In this document: in pieces, positions 15,443 through 21,812 of the stretch | How the letters are laid out: every line of letters starts with the position of its first letter | How positions within the stretch are numbered: position 1 is the stretch's first letter | NCBI GenBank assembly: GCA_902775375.1 | Contig: CACYLU010000003.1 | Coordinates: 62,001-126,000, forward strand | Origin: an uncultured Bacteroidales bacterium | Lineage (GTDB): Bacteria; Bacteroidota; Bacteroidia; Bacteroidales; Bacteroidaceae | Direction of reading: 5' to 3' | Length of the DNA: 64,000 nt | Program-made: the position numbers and the translations under genes | The notes under the pieces: model-generated | What the model saw: the letters and a program-made list of their open reading frames with translations, nothing else | What the model was told of the DNA's origin: nothing | Database searches by the model: none

Positions 15443-16489
15443 ATGGAGACTATAACCAACACTACATCTATTCTACTAATCTATACAGGTGGTACCATTG
15501 GTATGATTGAGAACCCTGTGACCGGGGCACTTGAGAATTTTAGTTTTGAGCAACTTAAGAAACATGTGCCTGAACTGCAGAAGTTTGATTTCAATATTGA
15601 CAGTTGTCAGTTCGACCAACCCATGGACTCGTCGGATATGGATGCTGTAGCGTGGCGTATGTTGGTAGATATCATTCAAAATAACTATGACAAATATACA
15701 GGTTTCGTAGTATTGCACGGTACAGATACGATGGCTTTTACAGCCTCTGCGCTAAGTTTCATGCTACATGGCTTATCTAAACCAGTTATTCTGACCGGTT
15801 CTCAGCTGCCAATAGGTGTGATACGCACTGACGGCAAAGAGAATCTGTTGACCAGTTTGGAGATAGCTGCAGCGCACAGGGCGGATGGTAAGCCAATGGT
15901 GCAAGAAGTGTGCGTGTATTTTGAGAACAAGCTTATGCGAGGTAATCGTACTACTAAGCTGAATGCAGAGGACTTTAATGCTTTTCGTTCGTACAATTAT
16001 CCTGACCTTGCTACTGTGGGTATACACATACGTTATAATCTGAATGCTATACATTACCAGGAGAAAGAGGTGCCTCTGAAAGTATATACCACAATGAGTA
16101 CCAATGTAGCGATACTAAAACTATTCCCTGGCATACAGGAAATGGTGGTACGATCAGTCTTGTTTATCAAGGGTCTCAAGGGTGTGGTATTAGAAACCTA
16201 TGGAAGTGGCAATGCTCCTCGTAAGGGCTGGCTGGTAGATTGCCTAAGTGAGGCATCCAAGCGAGGAGTAGTGATAGTCAATGTCACCCAGTGTAAGAGT
16301 GGCATGGTGGATATGGATCGTTATGAGACTGGTTACCAGCTGAAATCAGCTGGTGTGTTGAGCGGTTATGATATCACCACTGAAGCAGCCTTGACTAAAC
16401 TTATGTTCCTCTTTGGACAAGGCTTGTCGGTAGATGAGGTACGCCTGGAAATGATGCACTCCATAGTGGGTGAAATTTCCATGGACTGA
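15443..16489 (+). CDS. ansA: Type I L-asparaginase
   Basis: Cytoplasmic-type asparaginase of 348 aa that hydrolyses asparagine to aspartate and ammonia. The N-terminal TGGTIGM (nucleophile Thr ~18) and the second active-site motif VVLHGTDTMAFTASALSFML-like (Thr-Asp pair near 95) are both present, and ILTGSQLPIG follows. No signal peptide is seen, agreeing with a type I enzyme. It is transcribed away from the threonine operon across a 72-base gap; the aspartate it makes is the substrate of ThrA, so the pairing makes metabolic sense. A weak -7-like TATATTCGC lies at about 15415. Confidence 0.93.
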   Translation: METITNTTSILLIYTGGTIGMIENPVTGALENFSFEQLKKHVPELQKFDFNIDSCQFDQPMDSSDMDAVAWRMLVDIIQNNYDKYTGFVVLHGTDTMAFTASALSFMLHGLSKPVILTGSQLPIGVIRTDGKENLLTSLEIAAAHRADGKPMVQEVCVYFENKLMRGNRTTKLNAEDFNAFRSYNYPDLATVGIHIRYNLNAIHYQEKEVPLKVYTTMSTNVAILKLFPGIQEMVVRSVLFIKGLKGVVLETYGSGNAPRKGWLVDCLSEASKRGVVIVNVTQCKSGMVDMDRYETGYQLKSAGVLSGYDITTEAALTKLMFLFGQGLSVDEVRLEMMHSIVGEISMD

Positions 16490-16555
16490 TTCTAATACGA
16501 AATGTAAATGTGCAGGCTTGACAAAATCGTTGTCTTTCTGCAAAGATTTTTTCTC

Positions 16556-16588
16556 CCTCATGAGGAATTATTCTTTCCCTCGTGAGGG
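16556..16588. repeat. CCTCRTGAGG palindromes, copy 1 of an intergenic family
   Basis: Two palindromes stand close together: CCTCATGAGG (16556-16565) and CCCTCGTGAGGG (16577-16588). Similar paired motifs occur at 33421-33453 and 45681-45715, all in gene-free DNA with A/T-rich spacers. The pattern suggests a small dispersed repeat family; its role is unknown. Confidence 0.6.
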
Positions 16589-16679
16589 ATTAATTTTTCC
16601 TCCACGAAGCAGTGGGAGACATGCCATGTCGAGAGAGCCGAACAACGAACAGCAGAACAGTAAAAAACGGAGATGATAG

Positions 16680-16698
16680 CTGGCACTTATTGTGCCAG
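16680..16698. repeat. Perfect 7-bp hairpin
   Basis: CTGGCAC and GTGCCAG flank a 5-base TTATT loop in the ansA downstream region. It lies 190 bases after the ansA stop and has no T-run after it, so I do not call it a terminator. Confidence 0.45.
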
Positions 16699-16827
16699 TA
16701 TCTACTATCTGTGTTGGGAAGGTCTGCTATGAGTAAGAGCAAAGCTTGCTGTCAGGGTCTGTAAAGCCTCCTAAGGGTGACGGCAGAGCCTGCCACGGGT
16801 GAACGCAGTATCTGCCATAGGGGTATA

Positions 16828-16902
16828 GGAGATACTGCGACGACTCATGGCAGATACCGGAACGACCCATAGCAGATACTGCGACAGCCAGTGGGAGATA
16901 CT
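16828..16902. repeat. Degenerate 21-22 bp tandem repeat, about 3.5 copies
   Basis: Successive units begin at 16828, 16849, 16871 and 16893 with the shared core GGAGATACTGCGAC / GGCAGATACCGGAAC / AGCAGATACTGCGAC / GGGAGATACT. The reverse complement of the same core (GCAGTATCTGCC) stands just before them at about 16805. No spacers of unique sequence separate the units, so this is not a CRISPR. The 16490-16965 stretch has no gene. Confidence 0.55.
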
Positions 16903-16913
16903 AAAACAAATGA

Positions 16914-16965: not shown

Positions 16966-18054
16966 TTACTGCCAGTCGGCATTCTGTACGAAACGGCCTT
17001 CTGAAGTTCTGATCTCATTGAGAGGAATTGGAAGGCAAGTACAGTTACCTGGGGTAGTCTGGTATTTAGCCAAGTATTGTTTTTCGAAAGCTACATACTT
17101 ACCCAGAGTCTCACCTACATCACCCCAACGGGCCAGGTCGAAGAAACGGTGTCCCTCGAATGAGAGTTCAGCACGACGCTCACGCTTCAATGCTGTCCAA
17201 GCCTCTGTCTCGCTGCTGAATGCAGGATACAGGCCGATAGCGTAGTTAGCCGCAGCATCCTTGATTGTCTTACCGTGTACCTTGTCCTCATAAGTGTAAG
17301 AACCATTGGTAATACCCTTTTCAGCCTTAACATAACTGTTAGCAGCACGAGCACCGTAGATAGCGGTAGCTGCAGCATCCTTCAACACGTTCATGGTGTC
17401 GATGTCATTTGGATTCACTGAACTGATATCAGCACCCTGTACACCGTCAACGATGATCAGAGGGTCAGAACCGTTGGCAGATCCGACACCACGGATACGA
17501 ATGGTGGTATCACCTGCAGGACCACCGGCGTTGTTGATATACACACTAGATGCACGACCCTGCAATGCCTCAGCGAAGGTTGCAACAGGCTGCTCGGTGA
17601 TAGCGTCGCGGCTTACCACTGCCACAGAACCGGTAATATCTTTCTTGGCCTGTGTACCGTAACCTACGACTACGACTTCGTCCAAAGTCTCAGCGTCTTC
17701 CTTCAACTCAACGGTCAGAGCACTCTGTCCGTTAGGAAGGTTGATTTCCTGAGTGATGTAACCGATGTAAGAAACAATGATCACTGCACCGTTAGGCACG
17801 CCCTGGATAACGGCGTTACCGTCCATGTCAGTGATTGAACCGATTGTAGTGCCTTTAACGAGAACGTTGGCACCGATGACTGGACCCATTGCATCGTTAA
17901 CCGTCACTGTAACTGTGCGTCCGTTCTGCTGAACCGCAGCTACACCTTCAGTTGACATCGCATCCACGCCAGAAGCCATTGCCGGGCTTGCGGCGATCAG
18001 GAGCAGGGAAGCTCCGCAAAGGAAGGTCCTTTTCCAAAAATTAATGTCATTCAT
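16966..18054 (-). pseudogene. In-frame chimera: SusC N-terminal part joined to SusD C-terminal part
   Basis: Of 362 aa, residues 1-28 are a signal peptide, ~42-120 the carboxypeptidase-regulatory-like domain of SusC (GANVLVKGTTIGSITDMDG, then DEVVVVGYG), and ~135-239 the front of the TonB plug (IRIRGVGSANGSDPLIIVDG, LKDAAATAIYGARAAN). From ~240 onward it is a SusD/RagB C-terminus (ERRAELSFEGHRFFDLARWG, then PIPLNEI and the terminal VQNADWQ). The barrel and most of SusD are missing. SusD proteins often carry VRARAAN near this point, so recombination over the shared Arg-Ala-Ala-Asn codons around 17337 would give exactly this join. Neither parent function can survive. It may be a real deletion or an assembly join between paralogues. 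Confidence 0.85.
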
Positions 18055-18411
18055 AATAAAAAAATTAAGTTAATGTAAAACTTTTCTTTATAAAAATCTC
18101 TTTTTATTTCTTTCTTTTCTCAAATTATATACTGATTTCATACATTCACATGCACTTGTCAGAAATCACCAAATAGGTGCATACTTCCCTTATATAGAGG
18201 GAATTATTAAGCAATTACCGCTGTAATTGCGTACTATCATACATTCATAACTCCACATACTTAAATGTTTTTAAACAAATGAGCAAATTTTTTCACCTTT
18301 TTTTCATTTCTTGTTTTTCTCCATCTATTAATTCTTTTGCCTCTCTTTTGCACTCCAGTAAATATAAATATATATGGTGATTTTTTTTGTATTTGTTTTT
18401 TGCTCCATATA
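18055..18411. other. AT-rich gene-free leader between the SusC-SusD chimera and carB
   Basis: About 350 bases without a credible gene. It is very A/T-rich and holds a short direct repeat (CATACATTCA near 18139 and 18238). I found no clear TAnnTTTG box for the minus-strand chimera. The final part holds the carB promoter, listed separately. Confidence 0.5.
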
Positions 18412-18444
18412 TTTGCAGGTTAAAAAAAACTTTTGTTACTTTGC
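18412..18444 (+). promoter_or_regulatory. carB promoter
   Basis: TTTG at 18412-18415 is followed after 20 bases by TTACTTTGC (18436-18444), close to the Bacteroidota -33/-7 pair. Predicted start near 18451 gives a leader of ~130 bases containing a short ORF and a terminator-like hairpin. Confidence 0.6.
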
Positions 18445-18465
18445 ACAGTTTTTGAAAGATAAAAT

Positions 18466-18516
18466 ATGCAAGTACACGTTTCACAACATACGAGTGTTAA
18501 TGAACCAATGATATGA
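18466..18516 (+). CDS. Possible leader peptide upstream of carB
   Basis: A 16-codon ORF (MQVHVSQHTSVNEPMI) starts 15 bases into the predicted carB transcript and stops at the first base of the terminator-like stem at 18516. The position is what transcription attenuation by translation would require, but the peptide has no run of a single amino acid, and such a short ORF can occur by chance. No ribosome binding sequence supports it. Confidence 0.3.
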   Translation: MQVHVSQHTSVNEPMI

Positions 18517-18550
18517 CGCTGTTTCCGTTGTAGGAGGCAGCGTTTTTTTT
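18516..18550 (+). terminator. Intrinsic terminator (possible attenuator) in the carB leader
   Basis: An 11-bp stem (ACGCTGTTTCC 18516-18526 with GGAGGCAGCGT 18533-18543, two G-T pairs) with a 6-base loop is followed by eight T. It stands 31 bases before the carB ATG and downstream of a good promoter, so it must be bypassed for carB expression. Control by pyrimidine or arginine supply is a reasonable guess, not shown by the sequence. Confidence 0.7.
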
Positions 18551-18581
18551 ACATTGACAAATAGAAAAATAATATAGCATT

Positions 18582-21500
18582 ATGAAACAGAATTTGAAAA
18601 AGGTATTGGTTTTGGGATCTGGCGCGCTGAAAATAGGCCAGGCAGGTGAGTTTGACTATTCTGGCTCTCAGGCTTTGAAAGCGTTGCGTGAGGAAGGCAT
18701 CAGTTCTGTACTGATCAATCCTAATATTGCTACCATTCAGACATCGGAAGGTATTGCTGATAAAGTTTACTTCCTGCCTGTCACTATTGATTTTGTGGCT
18801 CGTGTGATTGAAAAAGAGCGTCCCGACGGAATTCTCTTGGCTTTTGGTGGTCAGACGGCACTGAATTGCGGAACAGACTTGTTTAAGAAAGGTATCTTGG
18901 AAAAGTATGGTGTTCGGGTGCTGGGTACTTCTGTTGAAGCTATTATGAATACAGAGGACCGAGATTTGTTTGTGAAGGAATTGGATAAGATTCCTATGAA
19001 GACACCTAAAAGCCATGCAGTAAATAATATGCGTGAGGCACTCGAGGCAGCTGAGGAGATTGGTTTTCCAATTATGATCCGTTCTGCTTATGCTTTGGGT
19101 GGTCAAGGTAGTGGTATTTGCCAGAACGAAGATGAGTTCATGAAATTGGCAGAGAGTGCGTTTACCTTTAGCAGCCAGATTTTGGTGGAGGAGTCGTTGA
19201 AAGGATGGAAAGAGATAGAGTTTGAGGTGATTCGTGATGCTAATGACCATTGCTTTACTGTTGCTACGATGGAGAATGTTGATCCGCTGGGTATTCATAC
19301 TGGTGAGAGTATTGTGGTAGCTCCAATTTGCTCTTTGAAAGACGAGCAAACCAAGATGCTGCAAGAATTGTCAGTGAAAGCTGTTCGCCATCTGAATATT
19401 GTTGGTGAGTGTAACATACAATTTGCTTTCAATGCAGAAACCAACGATTACCGTGTAATCGAAGTAAATGCCCGCCTGAGTCGTTCATCTGCGTTGGCAT
19501 CAAAAGCTACAGGCTATCCGTTAGCCTTTGTGGCAGCAAAGATAGCATTGGGTTATACCCTTGACCAGATTGGTGAAATGGGCACTCCCAATTCTGCATA
19601 TGTCGCACCTCAGTTAGATTACCTTATTTGCAAGATTCCTCGCTGGGATTTGACTAAGTTCGCTACTGTAAGTCGCGAGATTGGCAGTAGCATGAAATCA
19701 GTTGGCGAGATCATGTCTATTGGACGTTGCTTTGAAGAGGTCATCCAAAAAGGCTTGCGCATGATAGGGCAGGGCATGCATGGCTTCGTGGGAAATAGCT
19801 TGCAGTTTGACGACCTTGACCATGAGTTGTCACATCCAACTGACCTGCGAATCTTCGCCATTGCTGTAGCTTTTGAGAAGGGCTATACTGTGGAACGCGT
19901 TGAGGAACTGACAAAGATTGATCCTTGGTTCTTGAGCCGCATGAAGAATGTGGTGGATTATATGAAAAAGTTGCAGGGATATAAGAGTCTTGATGAACTG
20001 CCAGCTGAAGAATTGCGCGAGGCTAAGCGTCTGGGCTTCTCTGATTTCCAGATAGCCCGCTTTGTTATCCATCCAAAAGGTTCTACCTATGAGAAGGAGA
20101 ACCTGGAAGTTCGTGCGCGTCGTAAGGCATTGGGCATCCTTCCTGCAGTGAAGCGTATCAACACGGTGGCTTCAGAACATCCTGACCTGACAAACTACCT
20201 GTATCTGACTTATGGTACCGAGGGCTATGACGTGCGCTATTATCATAATGAGAAGTCTGTGGTAGTGCTAGGCTCTGGTGCTTATCGTATTGGCTCGTCT
20301 GTGGAGTTCGATTGGTGCTCAGTGAATGCTACTCAGACAGCTCGCAAGTTGGGGTATAAATCTATCATGATTAATTATAACCCTGAGACAGTATCTACTG
20401 ACTACGATATGTGCGACCGCCTGTATTTCGACGAACTTTCGTTCGAACGTGTAATGGATATTATCGATCTTGAAGAACCTCGTGGCGTGGTGGTGTCAGT
20501 AGGTGGACAGATTCCTAATAATTTGGCGATGAAGCTCTATCGTCAGTCAGTGCCTGTGCTGGGCACCTCTCCTGTCAGCATCGACCGTGCAGAGAACCGC
20601 GACAAGTTCTCTCGTATGCTTGACCAGCTGGGCATTGACCAGCCGGCTTGGCAGGAACTTACCAACCTGGACGATGTTAAAGACTTTATTAAGCGCGTAG
20701 GCTATCCTGTTCTGGTGCGTCCTTCTTATGTGCTTTCAGGTGCTGCCATGAATGTTTGCTATGATGATAGTGAATTGGAAACCTACCTCAAGGCTGCAGC
20801 CAAAGTATCTAAGGAATATCCCGTGGTGGTGTCGCAGTTCCTGCAGAATACCAAGGAGATAGAATTTGATGCTGTGGCACAGAATGGAGAGATTGTTGAA
20901 TATGCCATCTCTGAACATATCGAATTTGCCGGTGTGCACTCTGGTGATGCTACGCTGGTATGCCCTGCACAAAAAATATACTATGCAACTGGCCGCAAGA
21001 TTAAGCAAATCAGCCGTCAGATTGCTAAGGAACTGAATATTTCCGGCCCGTTCAATATACAGTACTTGGCTCGCAAGAACGAGGTGAAGGTAATTGAGTG
21101 CAACCTGCGTGCGTCTCGTAGCTTCCCATTTGTGAGCAAGGTGCTCAAGCGTAACTTTATTGAGACAGCTACTCGCATCATGTTGGATGCTCCTTATACC
21201 AAACCTGATAAGAGTGAGTTTGACATTGACTGGATTGGTGTGAAGGCTCCACAGTTCTCATTCTCTCGTTTGCAGAATGCCGATCCTGTATTAGGAGTTG
21301 ATATGGCATCTACAGGTGAGGTGGGTTGTTTAGGCGATGATGTGAATGAAGCATTGTTGCAGGCTATGATTGCCGTAGGCTATAAGGTGCCTCGTCCTGA
21401 AGTAGGTGTGATGGTATCATCTGGTGCCATGAAGTCGAAGGTAGATTTGCTTGACGCTTGCTCTGCCTTGCATCAGAAAGGTTTCAAAATATATGCTACT

Positions 21501-21812
21501 GCAGGAACATCGGCATTTCTGAATGCACATGGTGTAACGACAGTGCCTGTGTTCTGGCCAGATGAGCGCCCAGACGCAGCTAACAACGTGATGCGCATGA
21601 TTGCAGGTCATCAGTTTGATCTGATTATCAACGTGCAGAAGAATCATACCACGCGTGAGGTGACTAATGGCTATCGCATCCGTCGAGCTGCTGTCGATCA
21701 CAATATCCCACTCATTACCAATGCCCGTTTGGCAAGTGCCTTTATAGAGGCCATCTGTCAGGTTAGCGAGAAGGATATCAAAATTAAGAGCTGGCAAGAG
21801 TACGAACTTTGA
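18582..21812 (+). CDS. carB: Carbamoyl-phosphate synthase large subunit
   Basis: Enzyme of 1076 aa, the usual length. It has two homologous ATP-grasp halves: the first opens with GSGALKIGQAGEFDYSGSQA and includes the Arg/Gly-rich SAYALGGQGSGI loop; the second opens near residue 560 with VLGSGAYRIGSSVEFDW and includes PSYVLSGAAM. The last ~130 residues are the MGS-like allosteric domain (GVMVSSGAMKSKVDLL; TAGTSAFLNAHGV). Together with CarA (not in the window) it makes carbamoyl phosphate for arginine and pyrimidines. It is transcribed alone here, with its own promoter, attenuator-like hairpin and terminator. Confidence 0.95.
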   Translation: MKQNLKKVLVLGSGALKIGQAGEFDYSGSQALKALREEGISSVLINPNIATIQTSEGIADKVYFLPVTIDFVARVIEKERPDGILLAFGGQTALNCGTDLFKKGILEKYGVRVLGTSVEAIMNTEDRDLFVKELDKIPMKTPKSHAVNNMREALEAAEEIGFPIMIRSAYALGGQGSGICQNEDEFMKLAESAFTFSSQILVEESLKGWKEIEFEVIRDANDHCFTVATMENVDPLGIHTGESIVVAPICSLKDEQTKMLQELSVKAVRHLNIVGECNIQFAFNAETNDYRVIEVNARLSRSSALASKATGYPLAFVAAKIALGYTLDQIGEMGTPNSAYVAPQLDYLICKIPRWDLTKFATVSREIGSSMKSVGEIMSIGRCFEEVIQKGLRMIGQGMHGFVGNSLQFDDLDHELSHPTDLRIFAIAVAFEKGYTVERVEELTKIDPWFLSRMKNVVDYMKKLQGYKSLDELPAEELREAKRLGFSDFQIARFVIHPKGSTYEKENLEVRARRKALGILPAVKRINTVASEHPDLTNYLYLTYGTEGYDVRYYHNEKSVVVLGSGAYRIGSSVEFDWCSVNATQTARKLGYKSIMINYNPETVSTDYDMCDRLYFDELSFERVMDIIDLEEPRGVVVSVGGQIPNNLAMKLYRQSVPVLGTSPVSIDRAENRDKFSRMLDQLGIDQPAWQELTNLDDVKDFIKRVGYPVLVRPSYVLSGAAMNVCYDDSELETYLKAAAKVSKEYPVVVSQFLQNTKEIEFDAVAQNGEIVEYAISEHIEFAGVHSGDATLVCPAQKIYYATGRKIKQISRQIAKELNISGPFNIQYLARKNEVKVIECNLRASRSFPFVSKVLKRNFIETATRIMLDAPYTKPDKSEFDIDWIGVKAPQFSFSRLQNADPVLGVDMASTGEVGCLGDDVNEALLQAMIAVGYKVPRPEVGVMVSSGAMKSKVDLLDACSALHQKGFKIYATAGTSAFLNAHGVTTVPVFWPDERPDAANNVMRMIAGHQFDLIINVQKNHTTREVTNGYRIRRAAVDHNIPLITNARLASAFIEAICQVSEKDIKIKSWQEYEL

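Follow-up and report, generated by a model that had tools for sequence, protein, structure and literature searches.

Does an open reading frame (ORF) that begins as a SusC protein and ends as a SusD protein record an event in living cells, an error of assembly, or a new gene? Such an ORF lies in a 64,000-nucleotide stretch of DNA from an uncultured Bacteroidales bacterium (hereafter the window), where it sits between an asparaginase-like gene and a carB-like gene, as the original prediction had read the gene order (Table 1). We conclude, with a probability of about 0.8, that it is the scar of a real and recent deletion of ~4.2 kb from a susC-susD pair that stood intact between carB and ansA.

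Table 1. Features of the fusion locus and of the second susCD site, with the basis of each assignment. Positions are those of the window unless prefixed C3.
Feature	Position	Strand	Basis
In-frame susC/susD fusion ORF, 362 aa	16966..18054	-	ORF listing; Pfam CarbopepD_reg_2, Plug, SusD_RagB C-terminal third
susC-derived part, residues 1-239: signal-peptide-like start, CarbopepD_reg_2, Plug, without beta-barrel	17338..18054	-	Pfam
susD-derived part, about residues 236-362, the C-terminal end of SusD	16966..17349	-	DNA and amino acid identity
Junction, codons for Ala-Arg-Ala-Ala-Asn (residues 235-239)	17338..17352	-	Base-by-base comparison
Divergent carB/susC intergenic region, retained	18055..18581	.	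Alignment to L108
Asparaginase-like gene, left flank (putative name ansA from the original prediction)	15443..16489	+	ORF listing
carB-like gene, right flank (putative name from the original prediction)	18582..21812	+	ORF listing
360-bp non-coding repeat	16544..16903	.	96% identical to C3:25608-25967, downstream of the site A cassette
Site A cassette: susC, susD, DUF6057 and PD40 genes	about C3:17015-25610		ORFs and domains

We evaluated the domain content of the ORF, which has no internal stop over its 362 codons. Pfam placed CarbopepD_reg_2 at residues 52-129 (E=1.7e-15), Plug at residues 137-239 (profile positions 2-105 of 107, E=6.1e-20) and SusD_RagB at residues 282-361 (profile positions 206-297 of 297, E=1.4e-11); the signal peptide is called from visual inspection alone. 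The ORF therefore carries both the CarboxypepD_reg-like domain and plug that characterize the SusC family and the C-terminal SusD_RagB region that characterizes the SusD family. This open frame with domains of both families bears out the earlier claim that a SusC front is joined without frame loss to a SusD end (~123 residues), except that the plug, described there as only its first part, is nearly complete. Among solved structures, a sequence search matched residues 46-242 to SusC/RagA chains (8aa4_A, 9e-46; 6sli_B, 7e-39) and residues 267-360 to the last part of SusD chains (5t3r_A, 5e-10). The fusion thus resembles the chains of SusC/SusD (RagA/RagB) importer pairs (PDB 5t3r/6z8i SusCD homologs and 6sli RagA). 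Unlike these pairs, it has neither a beta-barrel nor most of SusD and so cannot be a working pair; for the same reason, its product would have no import function.

A scan of one-genome-per-species contigs brought in an intact allele, L108 (JAGCCV010000093.1, MAG RGIG9675, from yak omasum); the named relatives of the group come largely from ruminant forestomachs. L108 carries carB, susC (1120 aa), susD (619 aa) and the asparaginase gene in the same order and orientation as the window, and a relative thus has both genes intact at the corresponding position, as an in-frame deletion implies. The window aligned to L108 on the carB side as far as position 17335, and the alignment resumed at 17349 and ran to the stop, leaving 4197 bp (1399 codons) of L108 missing in a single gap that is, by its coordinates, a multiple of three. 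Contig C32 of G006 holds another susC-susD pair of this type, and measured against it the window lacks 4269 bp, which is likewise divisible by three. DNA identity to L108 was 84% from the carB start through the susC-derived part, with the leader beside the susC start matching closely, and 81% between the susD-derived part and the end of L108 susD; the susD ends of G006 C32 and G008 were 80% identical to this part in amino acids. Two regions were missing from the fusion by Pfam: the TonB-dependent beta-barrel had no match there, whereas PF00593 was found in the intact L108 SusC and in the genome's own paralogous SusC, and the N-terminal SusD-like region (SusD-like_3), present in L108 SusD, was absent. 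Direct synteny with an intact allele excludes chance. The original prediction had proposed a deletion of 3.5-4 kb and had pointed to an intact pair between the asparaginase gene and carB in related genomes as a check. Such a pair exists in L108 and, as another type of cassette, in G027, and a single in-frame loss at a short homology explains both flanks, although the loss is larger than proposed. The deletion would have taken the end of susC with the entire beta-barrel, and roughly four fifths of susD counted from its start.

Other relatives show what else can occupy this place. In G008, the same susD type lies directly beside the asparaginase gene, and the susC start adjoins carB on another contig. 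G027 carries a different type of cassette at its carB site, consisting of susC, susD, a DUF6057 protein and a PD40 protein (domains called on near-identical copies in the source genome). The asparaginase gene of G006 has no susD beside it, and in G013 the cassette is absent, with 187 bp from the asparaginase gene to carB. Across relatives, the carB/ansA site is filled, differently filled, empty or, in the source genome, scarred.

We then compared the join base by base with both families. SusC relatives read YGARAAN followed by G, and four SusD relatives read VRSRAAN, VRRRAAN, VRTRAAN and VRARAAN; the fusion reads YGARAAN and continues with S-Y-V-K as in SusD. The codons for RAAN (17338-17349) are common to susC and susD relatives, confirming the Ala-Arg-Ala-Ala-Asn stretch as the join, as originally proposed. 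The DNA shared at the join is 12 nt, CGTGCTGCTAAC, if the susD of the species itself resembled that of G006 C32, and at most about 17 nt given the neighbouring residues; L108 susC and susD are less alike at this place than a 12-nt match. Over 68 neighbouring susC-susD pairs from the loci compared (two contigs counted twice, and three pairs whose match was a gene overlap left out), no exact match of susC to susD exceeded 16 nt, a length reached in L127 at the RAAN motif. The longest match in G006 C8, 12 nt, fell there too. Most of the remaining pairs have their longest match at some other place; the motif thus forms a direct repeat only occasionally and by coincidence. The break would have occurred within this short stretch coding for Arg-Ala-Ala-Asn in both genes, which is consistent with slipped replication or short-homology repair, and the frame would have been kept by chance (one in three). 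Gene fusions born by deletion at short direct repeats are a general mechanism. Like them, the present fusion joins two same-strand neighbours at a short common stretch with the sequence between lost; unlike such fusions in general, it happens to keep the frame.

A short repeat can also mislead an assembler, and cells with an intact susC-susD pair could yield the same ORF if the pair were collapsed or bridged there. The source genome is a draft (25 contigs, 90% complete), and contigs of related MAGs end in this susC 5' region (C75, C1, C32 and C8 of G006, C41 and C29 of G090, and C25 of G029), indicating that the region is hard to assemble. These contigs, however, break at susC residues about 88-142, upstream of the susC-susD join, and the homology at the join is shorter than the usual minimum assembly k-mer of 21, as is even the 16-nt maximum seen over the 68 pairs. 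Frame and synteny are also kept, with both flanks coming from the same locus. Protein and DNA searches of the 25-contig assembly (in one of them, the best 40 of 58 candidates scored) turned up no close copy of the missing 4.2 kb on any other contig; the best match was the paralog at the other site (68% identical in protein, 71% in DNA). An assembly product is thus unlikely, and the deletion is most likely real in the cells.

Codon changes private to the fusion bear on the age of the deletion. Residues 117-236 held 11 synonymous changes and one non-synonymous change (relative to L108 and G006 C32 and C8), and the SusD part held eight and one (relative to L108, G008 and C32). Pooled, two of 21 changes were non-synonymous (p=2e-10 against neutral proportions), which gives little indication that the ORF has drifted neutrally after the deletion. 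A six-way comparison over residues 1-236 gave two synonymous and two non-synonymous private changes, too few for dating. Mainly synonymous changes indicate either that the deletion is young relative to the split of the alleles or that the ORF is constrained, and a recent deletion is the simpler reading. Constraint would be expected of a maintained new gene whose hybrid product is exported, for example as a free plug occupying TonB or a partner, or as a decoy. The ORF is fully open, its start region and leader are retained, and a selected fusion would give the same, mostly synonymous, pattern; but so would any young deletion, the barrel is absent, and about a fifth of SusD is left. Moreover, five private amino acid changes affect positions that are identical among the compared relatives (Val93Ile, Thr116Glu and Gly170Ser, and Asn260His and Phe338Cys in the SusD part), while L108 likewise has three such changes in residues 1-236.

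A maintained gene might also be expected to recur. Using the whole fusion as a query, we found that the source genome alone has a match spanning both parts among the matches listed for 158 genomes of the genus. The best 12 candidates per genome were scored, so that a distant fusion could be missed here, as in a search of 61 genomes. Conservation of the whole ORF elsewhere, an outcome that would have overturned the original prediction, was thus not seen among these matches, nor do they support a conserved novel architecture. Short SusC-front frames in G139, G080 (twice), G108 and G093 were read individually, others such as those of G152 and G161 being left out; all five were frameshifted or contig-end SusC with no SusD part in frame. 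A literature search by title found no SusC-SusD fusion or chimeric gene, which leaves absence from print unproven. With no second case among the matches listed, we consider it very improbable that the fusion would be a maintained gene, and a recent deletion remains our reading of the ORF.

Synonymous divergence from L108 was 0.335 in residues 1-236 and 0.715 in the SusD part, compared with 1.54 in carB and saturation in ansA. Values this far below those of the flanks could mean that the cassette itself has been exchanged between species, or that codon bias is strong.

We next considered a second susCD site (A), which the source genome carries on the same contig in inverted orientation, the two susC starts lying about 63 kb apart. 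Its cassette (C3:16992-25568) and the carB-site cassette of G027 are 96.3% identical over 8579 bp; the match opens about 23 nt ahead of the susC start and closes about 40 nt short of the last stop. Outside it there are only short matching patches, the longest (55 nt, 84%) upstream. Synonymous divergence between the genes of the two cassettes was 0.02-0.20 overall (0.51 in the first third of susD), against 0.88-2.46 for five neighbouring core genes. Most simply, the cassette would have moved recently between species and come to occupy different sites in the source genome and in G027. An 8.6-kb cassette 96% identical to the carB-side one of a related species suggests that cassettes turn over, and those at the carB site and at the second site look dispensable and may be replaced quickly.

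The 360-bp repeat on the ansA side of the fusion has a near-identical counterpart downstream of the site A cassette (Table 1), whereas L108, G008 and G027 have no such insert separating ansA from the cassette. With the best 40 of 62 candidates scored, pieces (24-121 nt) of a 476-nt query around this repeat matched at least 43 other places in the genome. At the second site of G027 (L069:13180-13460), the 3' remnant of a recombinase is followed by what appears by eye to be the 3' end of a PD40 gene and then by the repeat; this is apparently another cassette deletion scar.

In G006, two susC starts with 141 identical nucleotides each overlap two susC bodies by 79 nt (C75, C1, C32 and C8), a branching of the assembly that would be as expected if two sites exchange susC bodies; the susC copy on C1 has a stop codon inside. 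G090 was considered as a second case of exchanging susC starts and rejected: its contigs C41 and C29 have no identical end and no overlap to a third contig.

A tyrosine recombinase of 309-311 aa adjoins a susC start in three relatives (L109:6634-7566; G006 C1, L075:298-1227; G090 C29, L081:6616-7551). The L109 copy is intact by Pfam, with Phage_int_SAM_5 (PF13102) and Phage_integrase (PF00589), and those of G006 C1 and G090 C29 are its full-length relatives. The copy on G090 C29 lies beside the same nucleotidyltransferase-like gene as site A, and those of L109 and G006 C1 have other surroundings. At site A of the source genome the recombinase is split over frames (remnant L070:7655-8581), and G027 keeps the 3' remnant only. 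With such an enzyme beside the susC start in relatives, a broken copy at the genome's own second site and one cassette at different sites in two species, the fusion could have been made directly by site-specific, shufflon-like exchange instead of by deletion at a short homology. Yet the join falls at the plug/SusD motif and not in the common susC 5' region, and both flanks of the fusion are those of the plain carB site. The recombinase copy of the source genome is frameshifted, tblastn found none in the window, and hence no intact tyrosine recombinase adjoins the fusion as in a shufflon-type locus. The surroundings of the L109 and G006 recombinases also differ from those of the second site. 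We therefore regard direct site-specific exchange as an extremely improbable origin of the fusion and retain deletion at the short homology.

The setting of the fusion has counterparts in Bacteroides. Phase-variable SusC/SusD loci with a site-specific DNA invertase were reportedly described there by Nakayama-Imaohji in 2009. As in these loci, the susC genes here resemble one another at their 5' ends, and in relatives a tyrosine recombinase gene adjoins susC; by contrast, the recombinase of the source genome has a frameshift and is located at the other site, and the setting is read from single assemblies. Two published sources describe Bacteroides SusC/SusD loci affected by DNA inversion (PMC12632263, PMC10939037), making the susCD setting here a relative of a known kind. 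Both deletion fusions and shuffling SusC/SusD loci are thus already known kinds, and the scar is most likely real but ordinary.

If expressed, the fusion would give a putative periplasmic protein of CTD and plug, with a tail that is probably unfolded. It would be a long shot that it is both expressed and kept, as a free plug protein exported from a dying importer amid two inverted susCD sites that swap entire cassettes both inside a species and across species, in which case such scars could be raw material for new secreted proteins. What the locus shows about the family is that a single step, at a coding motif common to both genes, can remove a susC-susD pair, and the leftover ORF could be annotated automatically as a TonB-dependent receptor or a SusD protein. 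The susCD sites with their apparently fast cassette turnover are a more interesting thread than the scar itself.
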